A stretch of 64,000 nucleotides of DNA from Rubrobacter calidifluminis (GCF_028617075.1 NZ_JAQKGV010000002.1:62001-126000), one strand, 5' to 3'; shown: positions 14,490 through 23,746, numbered from the stretch's first letter. Translations and numbers: made by a program. The notes: generated by a model not told the origin, from the sequence alone.

Positions 14490-15302
14490 TTATACTCCCC
14501 GGGAGACCAGCGCGACGGCCCTGCCGGGCCCGCCGCTCGATCCGGCGACCTTGAGGGGGAGGAAGATGAAGTACGCCCCCCGCACGGGCAGCTCTCCGAG
14601 GTTCGTCAGGATCTCGACGTAGCGCATCCCCCTGCCCAGGCCCTCCCGGTGCACCGGCACCCCGTCGTGTGCGCTGCCGATGCTCGGGGCGTCTATGCCG
14701 AGCGCCCTTATCCCCTTCTCGTGCAGGTAGACGGCGAGCTCCGGTGAGGGTGCGGGCCAGCCCGGGGATTTCCCGGTGACGAGCGGGGCCCGCATGAACC
14801 TCTCGCCCTCCTCGCCCTCGGCGTAGTAGCGGTCCCAGCCGGTCCGCAGCAGCACCACCTCGCCCTCCTCCAGCTCCCCGTGCTCTTCCTCGAAGGCCCT
14901 TATGTGCTCCGGCTCGATGAAGGGGCTCACCCCGGGCTTACCCTGCCCGGAGAGGAACCGCACGTCGACCACGACGGCGGGTCCCATCAGCTCCTCCGGC
15001 GGCACCTTCTCCCCACTCTGGCTCCCGAGCGGGCCCGCCGCTGGGAGTCCCGAGCTCTCCGGCGGGATGAAGTGGGTGGGGGCGTCGAAGTGTGTGCCGC
15101 AGTGTTCGTCGATGACGATGAAGTTGGTCTGGTAGGGGGCTGTGCTGCGGGTCCTGCCGGTGGGACCCTCGACCTCGGCGAACCAGTTCCAGTTGTGGTG
15201 GGCGAAGCTCATGTGTCCCGGCCAGGTGCCCGGAAGCCGCTCGGAGAGCGTGACCGAGAGGTCGACCACCCGCGCCGCGCCGATCCCGCCGAGATCTATC
15301 AC
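14490..15302 (-). CDS. Cyclase family protein (kynurenine formamidase-like metal hydrolase)
   Basis: A 270-aa member of the cyclase/KynB superfamily. The metal-binding signature HCGTHFDAPTHFIPP is intact, and RVVDLSVTLSERLPGTWPGH and LLRTGWDRYY are typical of the family, whose members hydrolyse amides or lactone-like substrates. GTG 15302 overlaps the TGA of the KARI-like gene as GTGA, so translation is coupled. A longer frame upstream is a reading across the KARI-like gene and is rejected. Together with the KARI-like, DJ-1 and MetE-like genes it forms a compact operon of unknown pathway. Confidence 0.88.
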   Translation of the reverse strand: MIDLGGIGAARVVDLSVTLSERLPGTWPGHMSFAHHNWNWFAEVEGPTGRTRSTAPYQTNFIVIDEHCGTHFDAPTHFIPPESSGLPAAGPLGSQSGEKVPPEELMGPAVVVDVRFLSGQGKPGVSPFIEPEHIRAFEEEHGELEEGEVVLLRTGWDRYYAEGEEGERFMRAPLVTGKSPGWPAPSPELAVYLHEKGIRALGIDAPSIGSAHDGVPVHREGLGRGMRYVEILTNLGELPVRGAYFIFLPLKVAGSSGGPGRAVALVSRGV

Positions 15303-16300
15303 CGCGCCTCCTTCCCGCCGAGCATCTCCTGCAGGCTCGCCTCCGCCCGCACCATCGGGTGCTGCATCACCCGGGCGTACAGCTCCTCCAGCGCCTTCTC
15401 CCCCTCCTGGCGTTTCGCGGACCACTCCGCGTCGAAGCTCCCTGAGCGTATGCGCTCCTCGAGCGCCTCGCGCAGGAAGGATTCTATCCCAACCCGGTCC
15501 GTCTCCGCGAGGCGGGAGAGCTGCCCGTACTGGCTCGTGTGCGAGTGGAGCCTGAGCTGCTCGAAGAAGCCCACCTCGGCCGCCCGCTCGAAGATCTCGG
15601 CCGGCTCCTTCGAGACGTAGAGCTCCAAAAGCGCCGCCTCGGGCGGTATGCCCGCCTCGACCTCGAGCTCGAACGCCGCGAGGAAGATCCTCATGATGAG
15701 CGGCCAGATCCCCTGCTCGGCGAGGAGGTCCATCCAGGTCTCCTGCTCGAAGCCGACCTCTATCGCCCCGGCCCGCGTGCAGCCTATCGCCTTCGCGAGC
15801 GCCAGGCAGTCCTCCCGGGCGTGCCCGGAGGCGTCCCGGTGGACATCCACGAAGCACGGCGCCCCCTCCCCGGAGAGGTAGAGCGCCCTGAGGGCCTCCC
15901 CGATCATGCGTGGGGCGACCATCACCACGTCCACCCCCTCCGGCGGTTCGATGTGGGAGAAGGTCACGTTGTAGCCACTCGCGAAGACGAGCGTCTTCCC
16001 GGGGGTGAGGTGCGGCCCGATATGCTCCGTGTAGACCTCCGGAGCCACCTCGTCGGGGATGAGCAGGAGGATCACCTCCCCCCTTCGTGCGGCCCCGGGG
16101 ATGGGCATGACCGGGAAGCCGTCCTCCTCCGCCTGGTCCCAGCTCTCGTCGCGGACGTTGCCGACGATGATGTCCTCTATCCCCGAGTCGCGCATGTTCA
16201 GGGCCTGGGCGCGGCCCTGGTTGCCGTAGCCGATCACCGCGACGGTGCGCCCGGAGAGCCTCCCGATATCCGCGTCCTGGTCTGTGTAGATGCAGGCCAA
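15299..16300 (-). CDS. Ketol-acid reductoisomerase-like protein with altered active site
   Basis: A 333-aa homologue of class I ketol-acid reductoisomerase (IlvC). The Rossmann motif GYGNQGRAQALNMRDSG (24-40) is clear, and the knotted C-terminal domain retains DLLAE (Asp191, Glu195) and Glu226. However, residues essential in IlvC are changed: the His of FAHGFN is Ser109 (FASGYN), the Lys of APKGPG is Arg131 (APRMIG), and the second Glu of ExxxE is Ser230. No ilvB, ilvH or ilvD is nearby; instead a cyclase gene overlaps. It probably catalyses a different NAD(P)-dependent reaction. TTG start with GAGGAGGG upstream. Confidence 0.82.
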   Translation of the reverse strand: MACIYTDQDADIGRLSGRTVAVIGYGNQGRAQALNMRDSGIEDIIVGNVRDESWDQAEEDGFPVMPIPGAARRGEVILLLIPDEVAPEVYTEHIGPHLTPGKTLVFASGYNVTFSHIEPPEGVDVVMVAPRMIGEALRALYLSGEGAPCFVDVHRDASGHAREDCLALAKAIGCTRAGAIEVGFEQETWMDLLAEQGIWPLIMRIFLAAFELEVEAGIPPEAALLELYVSKEPAEIFERAAEVGFFEQLRLHSHTSQYGQLSRLAETDRVGIESFLREALEERIRSGSFDAEWSAKRQEGEKALEELYARVMQHPMVRAEASLQEMLGGKEAR

Positions 16301-16378
16301 CTTTCCCTCCTCTCTTTTCCGGTGGGGCGATGGTAAGCCCGGAGGGGCTCGAAGTGAAGCCCGGTGTACCGGGGGATG

Positions 16379-16402
16379 AAAAAGGGCCCCGAAAGGGGCC
16401 CC
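16379..16402 (-). terminator. Rho-independent terminator after ferritin-like gene
   Basis: Read on the minus strand, a 7-base GC stem (GGGCCCC/GGGGCCC with a TTTC loop) is followed by TTTTT. It lies 25 bases past the ferritin-like stop codon and directly upstream of the KARI-like gene, so it separates two transcription units. Confidence 0.85.
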
Positions 16403-16426
16403 GACGGGAGGAGGTCCGCGGTATCC

Positions 16427-17116
16427 CTACCGCGGGCAGGAGGTGATGAACGGCGAAGCCTCCTTCAGGACCTGCTGCTTCGACTTGGGTTTGTCGAAGG
16501 AGGCAGGGAAGGGGACGTAGCCGTTTATGAGGTTGAGGTAGGAGGCGTGGCGCGCCTCGACGGTCGCTATCGTCGCGCCGGCGGTCAGCAGGTCGGGGTT
16601 CTTTATCTTGTGGATCGCACCGTCGTAGGCCGAGACGCCAAGGTTCTCGAAGATGCGGGCGAGCTGCACGAAGCCCTTCACGTTCTTGTACGGGAAGCGG
16701 TAGCGGCACTCCGGCACGGGTTTGCCGCCGAGCTGCCGGATGACGGCCGTCAGCGTCTTGACGTGGTCGTGCTCGTGCTCCCGGATGAGCTCGAAGTACT
16801 TCCTTACCTCGGCGCCGTCGAGGATGCGTATCCCCGCCTTCTGGTAGCGACGGTACCTGAGGAACGCGAGCCGGAAGTCCTGGGTGGTGAACCTCTTCAG
16901 GCCCTCCCTGTAGAACGCGTACTCCAGATGTTCCAGCGTGAGCGCGTAGTTGAGGACGGCGATGTCCCCCGCCGTGTTCGCGGCCTCGGCGGTCTTCGGG
17001 AGCAGGGCTCCGCCGCCGAGCGCGAGCGCCAGCGCCCCCCCGCCGAGAAGCCTGCCCGAGCCGGAGAGGAAGCCGCGCCGCGAGAGGGCCTCCTCCGTGA
17101 ACGACTGCTGGACCAT
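16427..17116 (-). CDS. Tat-exported ferritin-like domain protein
   Basis: A 229-aa protein with a twin-arginine signal (SRRGFLSGSGRLLGGGALAL) and a signal-peptidase-like site after AEA (about residue 45), so it is probably secreted. The mature part is a four-helix ferritin-like domain (Ferritin_2/DUF4439 type) with candidate iron ligands in LEHLEYAFY, REHEHDH and EARHASYL. The final residues include an isolated Cys (ITSCPR). ATG 17116 has GGAG about six bases upstream. It lies 65 bases after the LarA-like gene on the same strand and ends at a terminator, so it may be the last gene of that operon. Confidence 0.85.
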   Translation of the reverse strand: MVQQSFTEEALSRRGFLSGSGRLLGGGALALALGGGALLPKTAEAANTAGDIAVLNYALTLEHLEYAFYREGLKRFTTQDFRLAFLRYRRYQKAGIRILDGAEVRKYFELIREHEHDHVKTLTAVIRQLGGKPVPECRYRFPYKNVKGFVQLARIFENLGVSAYDGAIHKIKNPDLLTAGATIATVEARHASYLNLINGYVPFPASFDKPKSKQQVLKEASPFITSCPR

Positions 17117-17180
17117 TACCGCTCCTTTCTCCAGAGACCGGTTTCGGATACGCCGTATACGGCGCCTGCGGGTTCCCGGA

Positions 17181-18458
17181 TCACAGGAGTCGGCTCGATT
17201 CCGCCAGCGGCCTCAGGTTCCCTGATTCATCGAAGCTCAGCTCTGCGGGCCCATCCACGATCTCTGCGTCGCCCGCCGCGAGCACCTCTTCGAGCAGGTT
17301 CTCCGAGACGAGGGCGTATCTGAGGTCGAGCGTGTTCGGGATGCGCACGAAGCGCGCCCTCTCCGGCGGGACACCCCAGTTGCAGCGGACGGCGGCCTCG
17401 AGCGCCTCGCGGTCGTTCTCCAGGATCAGCGGGATCTTACCCCGCTCGACGAACGTGCTGGTGAGGACGTTCTGGTTGGTCGCGGCGAAGTCCATCTTCT
17501 CGAAGAGCCGCTTCGTAGTGAAGTCCGCGAGCCCCACCCCGAGCGCGTTGCCGTGCGAGGCCTCGCTGAGATCACCCACGATGATGTACCTGACCTTCGG
17601 GCTCTCCGGCTCCTCGACGCCCGGGATGCGGTAGCGGCCGATGACGTTGGTGTCCATCCCGGTCCCGCTGTAGTTCTTGCCGAGCTCGTCGACGAAGAGG
17701 ATGTCGATCTCCTCTGCGGGGAGCTTCGGGGCAAGGTTTCTCGCCCGCCGCAGCAGCGCCTTCTCGCGTTCGATTACGGCCTCCGGCAGGATGGCCTCCA
17801 GGATCGCGGTCTCCTCGCAGGCGTTCTCGACGAGCGCGACCCCGAAGAGGATCTTGCCGGAGGAGAAGACGAGGCTTCCGGCCTCGACCATGTGGTCGCG
17901 GATGCCTGGGATGCCGCGGGCGTGCAGCTTCAGGGCCCCGGCGTGCTTGCCGAGTCCGATCGCGGCCATCTTCAGGAGCCCGCTCTCTATCTCCGAGTGG
18001 AAGTCGGTGTGCTGCTTGATCCGGCCCACGACGACCACGCCGTCCGCCTGCGCGGCCAGCCGGTCCATGTAGACCGGGATGCCGTGTGGGGTGCGTCCGA
18101 TCTCGACGGTCTCCATCGAGGAGCGGATCGGTGCTCCGACGCTCCGCTCGGTGACGCCCAGGCTCTCGAGCACCTCGAGCTGTCCCTCGGCGGTGGCCCC
18201 GCCGTGGCTGCCCATCGCCGGGACTATGAACGGCTCCGCCCCGGCCCCTCGCACGATGCCGACGAGTGTCTCGAGCACCTTCGGGATGTCCGAGATGCCG
18301 CGGCTCCCGGCGGTGATCGCGACGCTCATCCCCGGTCGGAGCTTCTTCCGGATCTCCGGGCGCGCGCACTGCCTGCGCAGCTCCTCCTCTACGTCCTCCA
18401 CCCGCGGCCGCGGGAACCCGCGGCGCACGAGGGCCACCTTCGGAAACTCCACCCCCAT
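17181..18458 (-). CDS. LarA-like (lactate racemase N-terminal domain) protein
   Basis: A 425-aa homologue of the nickel-pincer lactate racemase LarA family (formerly DUF2088). Visible landmarks are ITAGSRGI, PAMGSHGGATAEGQ and IESGLLKMAAIGLGKH, where the Lys is a plausible equivalent of the LarA pincer-binding Lys; several His residues follow. LarA homologues act on diverse 2-hydroxy acids. The gene overlaps the PdxA2 stop (TGATG), placing it in a sugar-acid catabolic operon, so C2 epimerisation of a four-carbon sugar acid is a reasonable inference. GTG 18461, ATG 18458 and GTG 18452 are competing starts. No larB/C/E is in the window. Confidence 0.82.
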   Translation of the reverse strand: MGVEFPKVALVRRGFPRPRVEDVEEELRRQCARPEIRKKLRPGMSVAITAGSRGISDIPKVLETLVGIVRGAGAEPFIVPAMGSHGGATAEGQLEVLESLGVTERSVGAPIRSSMETVEIGRTPHGIPVYMDRLAAQADGVVVVGRIKQHTDFHSEIESGLLKMAAIGLGKHAGALKLHARGIPGIRDHMVEAGSLVFSSGKILFGVALVENACEETAILEAILPEAVIEREKALLRRARNLAPKLPAEEIDILFVDELGKNYSGTGMDTNVIGRYRIPGVEEPESPKVRYIIVGDLSEASHGNALGVGLADFTTKRLFEKMDFAATNQNVLTSTFVERGKIPLILENDREALEAAVRCNWGVPPERARFVRIPNTLDLRYALVSENLLEEVLAAGDAEIVDGPAELSFDESGNLRPLAESSRLL

Positions 18459-19471
18459 CACCTCCTCGCTATCCGGCCGCTCAGCTCGCGGGCAAGCTCT
18501 ATCGCGGCCTTCATGCTGCGGTGGTCCGCCATACCCGTACCCGCGATATCGAAGGCGGTCCCGTGGTCCACGCTGGTGCGGAAGAACGGCAGGCCCACCG
18601 TGACGTTCACCCCCGTTTCGAACCCCGAGAGCTTCACCGGGATGTGGCCCTGGTCGTGGTACTGCACGACCACGATGTCGAACTCCCCCTTCCTGGCCCG
18701 CGAGAAGATCGTGTCCGGCGGGTAGGGACCGCTCGCGTCGATCCCCTCTTCCCGTGCCCGTTCCACCGCCGGCCTTATGAGTCTTTCGTCTTCCTCGCCG
18801 AAGAGGCCGTTCTCCCCGGCGTGGGGGTTGAGGCCCGCGACGGCTATCCTGGGTTCCTCGATGCCGAGCTTCCTCAGGGTCTCGTGGGCGAGACGGATCA
18901 CGGCGAGCTCCCGCTCGGGCTGCACCAGCTCTATGGCCTCTCTCAGTGGGACGTGGGTCGAGACGTGGATGACGCGCAGATCCTCTGAGACGAGCATCAT
19001 CGCGTAGTCTCTGGTGCCGGTGAGGTCGGCGAGGATCTCGGTGTGACCGGGGTATTCGTGCCCGGCGAGGTGTATCGCCTCCTTGTTCAAAGGCGCGGTG
19101 GCGACCGCGTCCACCTCTCCCTCGAGCGCGAGGGAGGTCGCGTGGCGGACGTACTCGAAGGCGGCGTCTCCGGCCCGGGCGTCGAGCTTGCCGAACGGGA
19201 GGTCCATGGGCAGCTCGCTCCGGGTGATGACGTCGGCGATGCCCGGCTCGAAGCGGGCCTCCGAGACTCCTCCTATGACGTTCATGCTCAGGGGGAGCCC
19301 GAGGAGGCTTATCGCGCGCCCGAGGATGCCCGCGTCCCCGACGATGACCGCGTGGTTTTCTCGCTGAAAACCCTCCTCGGCGAATGTCCTGGCGACCACC
19401 TCCGGGCCGACGCCCGCCGGGTCTCCCATCGTGACCGCGACGGTGGGAAGTGCTCTTCTGTCCTCGGTCAT
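18458..19471 (-). CDS. pdxA2: PdxA2-type 4-phospho-sugar-acid dehydrogenase
   Basis: A 337-aa member of the PdxA family of NAD-dependent oxidative decarboxylases. Diagnostic stretches are VTMGDPAGVGPEVVA, TAPLNKEAIHLAG with HTEILADLTG (metal and substrate His), VQYHDQGHIPVKL and TVGLPFFRTSVDHGTAFDIAGTG. Its start overlaps the DUF1537 kinase stop as ATGA. PdxA paralogues next to DUF1537 kinases are established as PdxA2, which convert D-threonate or D-erythronate 4-phosphate to dihydroxyacetone phosphate with CO2 release, rather than making vitamin B6. That role is preferred here. Confidence 0.9.
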   Translation of the reverse strand: MTEDRRALPTVAVTMGDPAGVGPEVVARTFAEEGFQRENHAVIVGDAGILGRAISLLGLPLSMNVIGGVSEARFEPGIADVITRSELPMDLPFGKLDARAGDAAFEYVRHATSLALEGEVDAVATAPLNKEAIHLAGHEYPGHTEILADLTGTRDYAMMLVSEDLRVIHVSTHVPLREAIELVQPERELAVIRLAHETLRKLGIEEPRIAVAGLNPHAGENGLFGEEDERLIRPAVERAREEGIDASGPYPPDTIFSRARKGEFDIVVVQYHDQGHIPVKLSGFETGVNVTVGLPFFRTSVDHGTAFDIAGTGMADHRSMKAAIELARELSGRIARR

Positions 19472-20604
19472 CGTCCTCCTCCGGTCAGGGTGAGAAGCGC
19501 GTTCCAGAGCGTCTCGGGCCCTCCAAAACCCCCGGCCTTGGTCACGACCGGGTACGGGCGATCCCCGATCAGGGTGCCCGCTGGAACGCCGGGCTCCACC
19601 TCTCCTCTCAACAGGATACCGCGCGCTCCGAGCGCCGAAGCGATCCGACGGGCCGTCTCTCCTCCGGTGAGCGCCAGCGCGTCGAAGAGGTCCTCCTCGG
19701 CCAGGCTGACCACGACCCGCGCGAGCGCGGCGGATATCCTCTGTTCCGCCCTCGCACTCCTCTGCAGGGCGGAGCACAGAGCGGCGCTGCGACCGGCCAT
19801 GAGGACGCGGCACAGGCAGTCGGTAGCGTCTTCTGCGAGCGGGACGACCTCCAGGCCTCGTTGCTTGAGGACATCGAGCTGCTCACGGGCGGTGGCGCTG
19901 GTACTCCCCACGACGACGAGCACCCTGCGGGCGGAGAAGGTGGGCGGGCCCGGCACCTTCCGCGGGCCGGGATGGACCGAGCCGAGCGCCCGGGCGAGCC
20001 CCGCCGAGCCGGCCCAGAGTACGGAGGCGGGATCCCGAACGCAGCGTACCAGATGCTCCAGGTGGCTTTGCTCTTCTGCGTCCGCCACGATCCATCGCGC
20101 CCGCGCCAGCGATCGGCCTGCGTCTTCGCGGCGGGCTCTTGCCGCCAGCACTTCCACCGGACCGAGCCCGGCTCTCTCGAGCAGGGTCGGGAGGTGCCCC
20201 CCGGGTAGCGGCTCTCCGTGGAGAACCTGCGTCCCCTCACGGGTCGTGCGGCCCATCTCCGGGAAGGCAGGGGCGAGGAGGCAGGCCCGGCGTCCCGAGG
20301 TCTCGAGCGCGGCGCCGAGCTCCGCGGCGACGTTGCCCCGCAGGGTGGAGTCGAGTTTCTTGTAGAGGATGGTGGCGTGCCGCACGCGCTCCGTGGCCCC
20401 GGCGGTTATGTCCGCGGCCCCTTCTCTCCCCAGTTCCCTGGAGCCGGTGTCCAGCGCCAGGGCGTCGGCCTCCGGCAGGGTGGTGCTGTTCTGGAAGAGC
20501 ACGGCCGTACGGTACCCGGAGCGGGCGAACTGCACCCCGCAGTCCGCCGCCCCGGTGAGGTCGTCGGCGACGATGGCGACTGCCGGTTGCGCAGGCGGTC
20601 GCAT
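19468..20604 (-). CDS. Four-carbon acid sugar kinase (DUF1537, DtnK/OtnK family)
   Basis: A 378-aa ATP-dependent kinase of the DUF1537 family, shorter than many members of about 420 aa. The N-terminal domain opens with VAIVADDLTGAADCGVQFA, the invariant family signature, and has YKKLDSTLRGNVAAEL; the C-terminal ATP-binding domain carries LALTGGETARRIASALG near its end. It should phosphorylate threonate or erythronate at O4 for the following PdxA2. Exact stereospecificity cannot be read. It starts one base after the MFS transporter stop and overlaps pdxA2 by four bases. Confidence 0.9.
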   Translation of the reverse strand: MRPPAQPAVAIVADDLTGAADCGVQFARSGYRTAVLFQNSTTLPEADALALDTGSRELGREGAADITAGATERVRHATILYKKLDSTLRGNVAAELGAALETSGRRACLLAPAFPEMGRTTREGTQVLHGEPLPGGHLPTLLERAGLGPVEVLAARARREDAGRSLARARWIVADAEEQSHLEHLVRCVRDPASVLWAGSAGLARALGSVHPGPRKVPGPPTFSARRVLVVVGSTSATAREQLDVLKQRGLEVVPLAEDATDCLCRVLMAGRSAALCSALQRSARAEQRISAALARVVVSLAEEDLFDALALTGGETARRIASALGARGILLRGEVEPGVPAGTLIGDRPYPVVTKAGGFGGPETLWNALLTLTGGGR

Positions 20605-20605
20605 T

Positions 20606-21925
20606 TCAGGTGCTTATCGCCTCGAGCTCCTGCCCGGGCGGTATCCTGCGCAGCGCGAGCGTCAGCAGCTGACCGAGGGCGAGCACTACGGCCACCACGA
20701 CCCAGGCCGTGGTCTCCGTGGTGAAGGTGGTGAGGATGGTCCAGATGCCGGCCCCGATCAGGAGCCCGCCGGCGAAGATGGCCCCGAGGAAGCCCACCGC
20801 CGTGCCGCGCACGCGGGTGGGGAAACTCTCCGCCTGGTAGGCGTAGCCTGCTCCGGACCAGGTTCCGTTGGTGACCTGGTAGATCAGGAAGTAGATTATG
20901 CCGGCGAGCACGGTGCCGTGCACGAGCAGGAAGATCAGGTTGAGCGGTGCCACGAGCATGGTCGTCCGGATCAGAACCTCCCTCCGGCCCCACTTCTCAC
21001 CGAGCCATCCGCCGAGGATGTAGAAGAAGAACCCTATCCCCCCGGAGAGCAGGAGCAATACCCCGGCCTCTCCTCCGGTGAACCCTTTGACCCGGGTGAG
21101 GAAGTCGGTGACGTAGAGGTTCGAGGCGGCGAAGGAGCTCGAGTAGAACAGCCAGACGACCGTGAGGAGCAACAGCTGGCGGCGTACCGGTCCGGGGTGG
21201 GCGAAGGGCTGCTTGAGCGTGACCTCCTCGACCTCTTCGACGTTGACCTCGTACTTCTCGAGTAGACGGGCGAGGTGTTCTTCGTCCCCGGCCTTCTTGG
21301 CTCGCTTGACCTCCTGCGGGTGCCGGAAACGGTCGCTCTCCCTTATGAAGGCCCGGCCGATGATGACGACGATGATCGGGATGACGCCGAACAGGAATAC
21401 GAAGCGCCAGCCGTAGCCGATGAACAGCGTGTAGACCGCCGAGGCGAGGAAGACGCCAAGCGGCCAGCCTCCCTGCACGATGGAGTACAGGAGCCCCCGC
21501 CGGCGCGCGGTAACCTGCTCGTTCACGAGCGTGATCGAGACGGCGAGTTCCGACTGGGCGAAGGCCGAGGCGAGCATCCGGATCACGACGAGCTGCCAGA
21601 AGTTCTGCACGAAGAAGGTGAGCCCGGTGAAGACCGCCGCCGCAGCGAGGCAGATCATCCACATCCTCTTGCGCCCCAGGGTGTCCATGCCGTATCCGAC
21701 GAAGAGCGTGACCACGAACTGCGCAGCCGAGACGAAGAAGACCAGGGTTCCCACCAGGGAGGCCGAGAGCCCGAGATCCTGTGAGATGTTCGGGATCGTG
21801 AGGACCAGGAGGTTGAGGTCGTACGATGCGAGCGACCAGCCGGCGAGCGCTATTATTATCAGATAAAGGGTGTATGCTCTACCTCCTTCGGTGCTGCCGA
21901 GCATGCTTTCGTTTTGCGTGGTCAT
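20606..21925 (-). CDS. MFS transporter (sugar-acid uptake)
   Basis: A 439-aa major facilitator with about 12 transmembrane segments. The loop after helix 2 has GYGMDTLGRKRMW, a variant of the DxxGRR motif, and a charged central loop of about 70 residues (ESDRFRHPQEVKRAKKAGDE...) separates the two halves. The AGYAYQAESFPTRVRGTAVGF block is typical of the metabolite:proton symporter branch. AGGAGG lies ten bases before ATG 21925. Placement between the DeoR regulator and the DUF1537 kinase suggests it imports the sugar acid that the operon degrades. Confidence 0.88.
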   Translation of the reverse strand: MTTQNESMLGSTEGGRAYTLYLIIIALAGWSLASYDLNLLVLTIPNISQDLGLSASLVGTLVFFVSAAQFVVTLFVGYGMDTLGRKRMWMICLAAAAVFTGLTFFVQNFWQLVVIRMLASAFAQSELAVSITLVNEQVTARRRGLLYSIVQGGWPLGVFLASAVYTLFIGYGWRFVFLFGVIPIIVVIIGRAFIRESDRFRHPQEVKRAKKAGDEEHLARLLEKYEVNVEEVEEVTLKQPFAHPGPVRRQLLLLTVVWLFYSSSFAASNLYVTDFLTRVKGFTGGEAGVLLLLSGGIGFFFYILGGWLGEKWGRREVLIRTTMLVAPLNLIFLLVHGTVLAGIIYFLIYQVTNGTWSGAGYAYQAESFPTRVRGTAVGFLGAIFAGGLLIGAGIWTILTTFTTETTAWVVVAVVLALGQLLTLALRRIPPGQELEAIST

Positions 21926-21987
21926 CGGTGTTCATCCTCCTAACCCTTTCCCCGTTTGTTTTCGTGGAGTCCACCTCTACGCTTCGT

Positions 21988-22776
21988 TCAGACGAGATGC
22001 ACCTCCAATCCTCCGATCTTCGAGATCTCCCGCAGCTTCGCTTCTGACAGCGAAGAGCCGGTTACCAGATCGTCCACCTCCTCCAGGGTGCACACGTCGA
22101 AGAAGGCCGGAGGCCCAAACTTGCTGTGGTCGGCGAGCAGCACGACCCTCCGCGCGGCGCGGATGATCGCCCGCTTGACCGCCGCGACCTCCAACCCGGC
22201 CTCGGTGAGCGTCGTGCCCGCGACCGCGTGTATCCCGACGAGCGCGACGTCCGCGTGCAGCCGCTCGAAGAACGCCTGGGTCTCGGGCCCGAGCAGCGTG
22301 AACGAACGCTCCCTCACCACTCCTCCTGAGACCAGGACCTTCACCCCGGAGATCGGCGCGAGCAGCGAGGCCGCATACACGTCGTTCGTGACCGCGGTGA
22401 TCCGGAGGGGCCGCCTCGCGAACGCCTCTATCGCCGCGATCACCGTCGATGAGGAGTCGAAGATGACGCTCTGACCCTCCTCCAGGAGCGAGGCGGCATG
22501 CCCGCCTATCCTCGCCTTCTCCTCCGCGTGGCTGCGCCGCCGGTCTTCGAAGAGGGGCTCGAAGGTCGCCCTCTCGGACGCCACCGCCCCCCCGTGCGAG
22601 CGGCGTATGACACCCTCCTTGTCCAGCAGCCTGAGATCCCTGCGCACCGTGGACTCCGAAACCCCCGTCTCCCGCGCGATCTCGGCCACCGACGCCGCCC
22701 CCCGCGACCGTAGCAGGCTCAGAACCCGCGTCCTGCGCTCCGCCGGTATGCTCCTGTCCCTGCTCCTGCCCTTCAT
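21988..22776 (-). CDS. DeoR/GlpR family transcriptional regulator
   Basis: A 262-aa repressor-type regulator. The N-terminal winged helix-turn-helix (RRTRVLSLLRSRGAASVAEI, ETGVSESTVRRDLRLLDKEG, IRRSHGGAV) is textbook DeoR, and the C-terminal sugar-phosphate sensor domain (EEKARIGGHAASLLEEGQSV, IFDSSSTV, VALVGIHAV, LADHSKFG) is intact. It is the first gene of the sugar-acid operon and probably represses it until a phosphorylated intermediate accumulates. A sigma70-like promoter and direct repeats lie just upstream. Confidence 0.92.
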   Translation of the reverse strand: MKGRSRDRSIPAERRTRVLSLLRSRGAASVAEIARETGVSESTVRRDLRLLDKEGVIRRSHGGAVASERATFEPLFEDRRRSHAEEKARIGGHAASLLEEGQSVIFDSSSTVIAAIEAFARRPLRITAVTNDVYAASLLAPISGVKVLVSGGVVRERSFTLLGPETQAFFERLHADVALVGIHAVAGTTLTEAGLEVAAVKRAIIRAARRVVLLADHSKFGPPAFFDVCTLEEVDDLVTGSSLSEAKLREISKIGGLEVHLV

Positions 22777-22800: not shown

Positions 22801-22830
22801 AATTTACCAGTATCGGTCATATGTTGTCAA
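22801..22830 (-). promoter_or_regulatory. Promoter of the DeoR/sugar-acid operon
   Basis: On the minus strand a consensus TTGACA (22830-22825) is followed after 18 bases by TAAATT (22806-22801), 25 bases upstream of the DeoR start codon. The region is AT-rich against its surroundings. Confidence 0.6.
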
Positions 22831-22984: not shown

Positions 22985-23746
22985 TTGAGTTTTGATCTGT
23001 GGCAGGGGGTGGTGCTTGCGGGTGCGGGGTTTCTCTCCGGCGCGCTCAACGCCGCCGCAGGGGGAGGTTCTCTGATCAGCTTCCCTGCCCTGCTGTGGGT
23101 TGGTTATCCGCCGATAATCGCCAACGTCACCAACAACGTCTCGGCCGTGCCGGGTTACGTGGGAGGGGGATGGGGGTATCGGGAGTACCTCTCGGGGCAG
23201 AGAGGCAGGATCGTCGCCCTCTCCGCGGCGAGTACTTTGGGCAGCGCGATCGGGGTATTTCTGATCCTGAAGAGCTCGCGGGCCCAGTTCGAGGGGGTGG
23301 TGCCTTTCCTGGTGCTGATGGCGTGCGCCCTGCTCGCGCTGCAGCCTTATCTGGGCAGGATACTCGGCGGATTTCAGAAGCGGAAGAGGGAGCGGCCCGG
23401 CCTCGGGGCGCTGGTGGCCCAGACCCTCGCCGCCGTTTACGGGGGATACTTCGGGGCTGCGCTCGGTGTGGCCGTGCTGGCGCTGCTCGGGATAGCCATA
23501 GACGACAGCCTGCAGAGGATAAACGCCCTGAAGGCGTTCCTTCAGATCGTGATAGGCGGGGTCGCTGCGGTGGGGTTCATACTGCTCACCCCCGTCGCCT
23601 GGGGAGCGGTGGCCATCGTCGCTCCGGCTTCGATCGTCGGCGGGAGGTTTGGTGCCTGGGTGGCTCAGCGGCTCAGCGACCGCGTCCTGCGCGTCTCGAT
23701 AATAGTCTACGGGGTGACGATAGCGGGCTGGCTGTTCATGCGTTAG
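22985..23746 (+). CDS. TSUP family transporter (TauE/SafE)
   Basis: A 253-aa integral membrane protein with about eight hydrophobic segments and the duplicated TSUP motif (GFLSGALNAAAGGGSLISFPA near the N-terminus; VYGGYFGAALGVAVLALLGI in the second half). The family exports or imports sulfite, sulfoacetate and other organosulfur or carboxylate anions; substrate unknown here. TTG start at 22985 with a modest GGAAG upstream. It lies divergently from the DeoR operon, and the shared upstream region is AT-rich. Confidence 0.85.
   Translation: MSFDLWQGVVLAGAGFLSGALNAAAGGGSLISFPALLWVGYPPIIANVTNNVSAVPGYVGGGWGYREYLSGQRGRIVALSAASTLGSAIGVFLILKSSRAQFEGVVPFLVLMACALLALQPYLGRILGGFQKRKRERPGLGALVAQTLAAVYGGYFGAALGVAVLALLGIAIDDSLQRINALKAFLQIVIGGVAAVGFILLTPVAWGAVAIVAPASIVGGRFGAWVAQRLSDRVLRVSIIVYGVTIAGWLFMR

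Follow-up and report, generated by a model that had tools for sequence, protein, structure and literature searches.

A group-22 LarA protein encoded with a DUF1537 sugar-acid kinase and a PdxA2-like dehydrogenase has been found in a 64,000-nucleotide stretch of Rubrobacter calidifluminis DNA (hereafter the window), and on balance we favour the reading, drawn from sequence comparison, that this protein would be a nickel-pincer C2 epimerase acting before the kinase, most simply on D-erythronate and D-threonate, in an operon devoted to four-carbon acids. The genes, their order, the fold of the LarA protein (as a model), its cofactor ligands, the cofactor-synthesis genes of the genome, and a gene linkage that is conserved in distant bacteria were all found directly and are described below, together with the other readings that these observations allow.

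Organization of the operon

The initial annotation had placed five genes, encoding a DeoR regulator, an MFS transporter, a DUF1537 kinase, PdxA2, and a LarA-like protein, on one strand at 17181-22776, and this is borne out by gene calls and by Pfam/NCBIfam matches (Table 1). Its description of the junctions as ATGA/TGATG overlaps holds for two of them, kinase/PdxA2 (ATGA) and PdxA2/LarA (GTGATG, the LarA start being called as GTG with an alternative ATG at 18458), but the MFS and kinase genes are separated by 1 nt (TGA-a-ATG) and the DeoR and MFS genes by 62 nt. The unit is also longer than was first drawn, as the five genes are followed by a ferritin-like gene and only then by a terminator-like hairpin. 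Because a promoter-like site precedes deoR and this hairpin follows the ferritin-like gene, the predicted transcription unit is likely to be deoR-MFS-kinase-pdxA2-larA-ferritin. A palindrome search for a DeoR operator gave none that was convincing. Beyond the hairpin, KARI domains were detected in the product of 15299-16300, no ApnO model was among its profile matches, and the true IlvC is encoded elsewhere (contig C5).

When the locus was compared with its counterpart in a congener (L129), dS was 0.48 for the divergently transcribed TauE gene (22985-23746) and 0.03-0.10 for the operon genes (14490-22776); a recent exchange of the block 14490-22776 between species may lie behind this.

Table 1. 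Features of the operon and its downstream flank, in window coordinates.
Feature	Coordinates	Strand	Remarks
Sigma-70-like promoter TTGACA-18-TAAATT	22801..22830	-	~25 nt upstream of deoR; motif scan, 1 in region vs 0.5 expected (shuffles)
DeoR/GlpR-family regulator, 262 aa	21988..22776	-	Pfam HTH_DeoR + DeoRC
MFS transporter, 439 aa	20606..21925	-	Closest to aromatic-acid/sialate H+ symport subfamilies, with scores under their cut-offs
DUF1537 sugar-acid kinase, 378 aa	19468..20604	-	SBD_N PF07005 + NBD_C PF17042
PdxA2-like 4-phospho-tetronate 3-dehydrogenase (putative), 337 aa	18458..19471	-	Pfam/NCBIfam PdxA
LarA superfamily, nickel-pincer group 22, 426 aa	17181..18461	-	Lar_N domain + NF052515
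Ferritin_2 family protein	16427..17116	-	64 nt downstream of LarA; unit member by position
Intrinsic-terminator-like hairpin with T run	16383..16402	-	3' of ferritin-like gene; strongest such hairpin on minus strand
Divergent ketol-acid reductoisomerase (KARI) paralogue	15299..16300	-	Accessory; downstream of terminator-like hairpin; also adjoins LarA in L121
PF04199 cyclase-family hydrolase	14490..15302	-	Accessory; close to LarA in most Rubrobacter clusters

The LarA protein and its cofactor

The window LarA scores 533.3 bits on the model of nickel-pincer nucleotide (NPN) isomerase group 22 (NF052515, cut-off 400). An AlphaFold (AF2) model built with 50 relatives has a pLDDT of 94.1 and gave 19 PDB matches at E<=0.001, all of them LarA-family proteins, including lactate racemase, malate racemase, the Thermotoga protein Q9WYS3, and single-histidine LarAs. 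The TM-scores of this model to LarA structures are only 0.41-0.58, and the domains are therefore rotated or divergent; identity to any solved LarA is ~15%, a marginal sequence similarity. Since no match was obtained when the LarA profile was searched against PDB sequences, membership of the family rests on the HMM and the fold. In the alignment with 9eia, H86 and H151 fall on the two catalytic histidines (H108 and H174 of LarA), and R54, K164, and H180 reproduce near-identically the spacing of the NPN ligands R75, K184, and H200 of LarA, an equivalence established by spacing and motif and not by superposition. All five residues are invariant in 100/100 LarA sequences compared. By profile and modelled fold, the window protein is a member of the LarA superfamily, NPN isomerase group 22, for which NPN binding and epimerase activity are predicted, and its earlier assignment to the nickel-pincer LarA family stands.

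The genes for NPN synthesis, on which the earlier proposal depended, are all present in the same genome, where profile searches located larB, larC, and larE on other contigs, each over its cut-off (242, 413, and 339 bits, respectively). In one Bacilli locus (L180), a group-22 LarA of the core clade (the Rubrobacter and Bacilli clade of the LarA tree described below) that is 56% identical to the window LarA is encoded directly with larE and larC, and this larA-larE-larC grouping is the most direct genomic sign that the core clade would use the cofactor. A point against the proposed reading is that no LarC was seen in G014 and G022, draft genomes from a single sister genus that carry group-22 LarA. 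The presence of LarC among relatives was set aside as evidence, being too common to inform.

A second group-22 LarA, ~48% identical, is encoded in the same genome (G000:C15:62546-63694; L005:8460-9773), where its neighbours are an EPSP-synthase-like gene, an aldo/keto reductase, an acyl-CoA-type dehydrogenase, and a CoA-ligase-like gene; these suggest another substrate.

The kinase and PdxA2

Of the three DUF1537 models, the one that the kinase matches best is that of D-threonate kinase, DtnK (NF047819), at 211 bits under a cut-off of 450; on the 3-oxo-tetronate kinase (OtnK) model NF043035 it reaches 76 bits under a cut-off of 350. Kinases linked to LarA in other bacteria score 199-355 bits on the D-threonate kinase model. 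By these comparisons the window kinase appears nearest to D-threonate kinase, and the designation DtnK proper is not claimed. The PdxA-family protein scores 368 and 359 bits against the PdxA2 structures 2hi1 and 6e85, 219 against PdxA1, and 396 on PRK03371 (cut-off 583). By bit score both proteins come nearest to their initial description as being of the D-threonate type, each under the NCBIfam cut-off for it.

Since the genome has a single PdxA-family gene and a single DUF1537 kinase gene, both in this operon, and has PdxS for vitamin B6, the kinase and PdxA2 are considered catabolic and to belong together. A role of the window PdxA in vitamin B6 synthesis was ruled out by the presence of PdxS and by the position of the gene inside a catabolic cluster.

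The kinases of the window and of the congener locus L129 lack a 14-residue segment, with a conserved DPxxPV motif, that the other DUF1537 kinases aligned have kept. That the kinase is a pseudogene was ruled out by a dN/dS of 0.26, indicative of purifying selection, and by the congener, which also lacks the segment and has an intact frame; the invariant motifs of the window kinase are intact as well. Given the missing residues, its substrate could have shifted.

Conservation of the gene linkage

A scan of the whole collection found both kinase and PdxA2 genes within 6 kb of the LarA gene and on the same strand at 20 of the 80 named loci, and the same arrangement was found at 13 Rubrobacteraceae loci. 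The trio occurs in Rubrobacter, Bacilli, Clostridia, Planctomycetota (one), Bacteroidota (one genome), and two unplaced bacteria. This linkage is far beyond chance and recurs in at least four phyla, and it supports the treatment of the kinase, PdxA2, and LarA-like genes as a functional grouping, as the initial annotation had it. The order of the genes differs among clusters (kinase-PdxA2-LarA, LarA-kinase-PdxA2, kinase-LarA-PdxA2, and PdxA2-kinase-LarA), from which it follows that the linkage has been kept through rearrangement; at one locus (L046, of Heyndrickxia coagulans 36D1), four genes lie consecutively, for a PrpR-type regulator, the kinase, PdxA2, and LarA.

The linked label is clustered on the LarA tree (10 changes, versus 28.6 after shuffling), and in the core clade of Rubrobacter and Bacilli the LarA is linked to kinase and PdxA2 in 27/30 rows. 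Group-22 LarA over the cut-off was found in 33 of the 201 Bacilli-class genomes drawn. Of nine core-type Bacilli LarA loci viewed with wide flanks, both partners were present at four, a single partner at two (one of which lies at the end of a contig), and neither at three. The majority of Bacilli group-22 LarAs belong to other types and show no partner within 1.5 kb on each side.

The residues D153/F337/R340 are present together in 34/34 linked and 9/57 unlinked LarAs. As a signature of linkage they were set aside, because the test was weak once corrected for phylogeny, with 2.2 pairs in favour, 0 against, and a median p of 0.5. The presence of DUF1537 elsewhere in unlinked genomes was likewise rejected as a separator of LarA types (6/9 with the signature versus 10/20 without).

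The group-22 LarAs of Bathyarchaeota (L058, L061, and L069) form a separate clade and have neither kinase nor PdxA2 nearby. Among 14 control genomes, Haloferax volcanii was the only one with a group-22 LarA; PdxA and a DUF1537 kinase are also present there.

Transporters and other neighbours

Four kinds of transporter accompany the trio: MFS proteins in the window and at L121, GntP in Rubrobacter taiwanensis (L040/L128), a sugar ABC system near L123, and TRAP transporters in the clusters of Bacilli and Clostridia. The transporters thus differ among trio clusters, and by family assignment all are of sugar-acid or sugar types. The TRAP binding protein encoded at L042 shares 51% identity with 4pdd and lies near 7bbr, the title of which names a sugar acid binding protein; the ligand of 4pdd, 4pdh, and 4p9k is, we assume, D-erythronate. 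Some Bacilli clusters also carry an aldehyde dehydrogenase and an Fe-alcohol dehydrogenase, which would fit an acid made from a polyol or an aldose. Where the trio is missing, group-22 LarAs lie beside other genes, including SDRs, TRAP parts, and altronate/galactarate dehydratases, so that group 22 overall looks like a set of sugar-acid epimerases of several specificities.

Proposed pathway and alternatives

D-Erythronate and D-threonate are C2 epimers of one another. In the pathway of the kinase with PdxA2, oxidation at C3 by PdxA2 is followed by decarboxylation, which yields dihydroxyacetone phosphate. The operon is proposed to serve growth on exogenous four-carbon sugar acids, under the control of DeoR. 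The acid would be taken up by the MFS protein, the group-22 LarA would interconvert C2 epimers, most simply D-erythronate and D-threonate, ahead of the kinase, and the kinase would phosphorylate the acid at O4, after which PdxA2 would oxidize C3 and the resulting beta-keto acid would lose CO2 to give dihydroxyacetone phosphate. Since PdxA2 acts at C3 and the decarboxylation removes C1, inversion at C2 before the kinase would suffice to merge the two acids, and one kinase/PdxA2 pair would serve both epimers. L-Threonate is not related to the D series by C2 epimerization and would not be rescued.

The reactions given to the kinase and PdxA2 follow what is known of their families, and DUF1537 kinases act on four-carbon acids (PMC10971088, PMC7954711). 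LarA enzymes work by removing a hydride from C2 of their 2-hydroxy acid substrate and restoring it to one face or the other, and C2 epimerization of 4-deoxy-threonate/4-deoxy-erythronate has been measured for other LarA homologues (PMC11770544). The earlier suggestion that a four-carbon acid is epimerized at C2 to feed the kinase has gained the support of the LarA family assignment, larB/C/E, the partner genes, and their conserved linkage, with the substrate, direction, and pre-kinase position of LarA being the parts that we infer.

A different specificity for LarA has to be weighed. At L180:7048-13259 the gene order is glycerate kinase-MFS-LarA-LarE-LarC, a candidate glycerate racemase operon, and genes resembling tartronate-semialdehyde reductase adjoin core-clade LarA at L044 and L179; none of these three loci has the trio, and LarA homologues that prefer glycerate also exist (PMC11770544). 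The core-clade group-22 LarA could on these grounds be a glycerate racemase or a general racemase of short sugar acids, its four-carbon role being one of several or absent, but the 27 core-clade rows that include kinase and PdxA2, families for four-carbon acids and not for glycerate, make this unlikely.

The same gene set would also fit a LarA that acts after the kinase, the kinase taking both epimers and LarA turning 4-phospho-D-erythronate into 4-phospho-D-threonate for PdxA2. 4-Phosphoerythronate is a known metabolite, dephosphorylated by CpgA of B. subtilis (PMC7954711); however, the activities of LarA homologues in PMC7583248 and PMC11770544 are all on unphosphorylated acids, and we regard epimerization of the phosphorylated acid as quite unlikely.

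Accessory genes of the Rubrobacter clusters suggest a third possibility, namely that the substrate of the Rubrobacter unit is a different and perhaps branched acid, with the KARI paralogue and the cyclase-family and alpha/beta hydrolases as members of the pathway and with a changed kinase specificity. The KARI and cyclase genes are in one run with LarA, MFS, kinase, and PdxA2 at L121 and adjoin the unit in the window, an alpha/beta hydrolase gene is present in some Rubrobacter clusters and the cyclase gene in most, the kinase is altered by the loss of its segment, and apionate catabolism pairs a KARI-like oxidoisomerase (ApnO) with a DUF1537 kinase. This possibility is very unlikely, given that neither KARI nor cyclase was detected in several of the Rubrobacter clusters or in the trio clusters of Bacilli and that a terminator-like hairpin parts them from the unit in the window. 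Their presence in the Rubrobacter cluster does count against the preferred reading, as the tetronate pathway needs neither of them.

With C2 epimerization before the kinase as the preferred reading, it is an even call whether the group-22 core clade represents a widespread nickel-dependent tetronate C2-epimerase, a redox-neutral entry that would bypass dehydrogenase-isomerase steps and provide a first substrate for the group. Group 22 is a named group for which no substrate or activity of any member was found in the literature searched, nor any report there of threonate or erythronate themselves as LarA substrates, and the linkage of the trio points to a four-carbon acid that can be tested. 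If the reading is true, growth on some sugar acids may require nickel, entry into the pathway would involve no net redox chemistry, the reactions of LarA would be extended to natural four-carbon acids, and the annotation of homologues would be helped across several phyla.

Comparison with known systems

The catabolism of four-carbon acids by DtnK and PdxA2 (Zhang et al. 2016, via PMC10971088, PMC7954711, PMC12540250), as far as it is described in these sources, shares with the window unit the kinase family and the PdxA2 branch of PdxA. The window unit differs from it in that the kinase falls under the DtnK cut-off and is shorter by 14 residues, and in that a LarA group-22 gene stands in place of the dehydrogenase/isomerase entry (LtnD/DenD-OtnI-OtnK-OtnC), with none of OtnC, OtnI, and LtnD found in the five-gene unit.

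With characterized members of the LarA superfamily (LarA, malate racemase, and the D-gluconate 2-epimerase GntE; PMC7583248, PMC11770544), the window protein has in common the fold, the two catalytic histidines, the cofactor ligands, and the NPN synthesis genes in the genome, whereas just after the second catalytic histidine it has T152-D153 where LarA1 has F175-F176. In the GntE pathway of Thermotoga maritima, a LarA homologue acts as C2 epimerase on a sugar acid that then enters a catabolic route, as is proposed here; its substrate has six carbons and its LarA groups are 19 and 20, in contrast to group 22 of the window LarA. With the substrate that we infer, the window unit would be a variant of the known kinase-PdxA2 catabolic pathway in which the LarA entry step is new.
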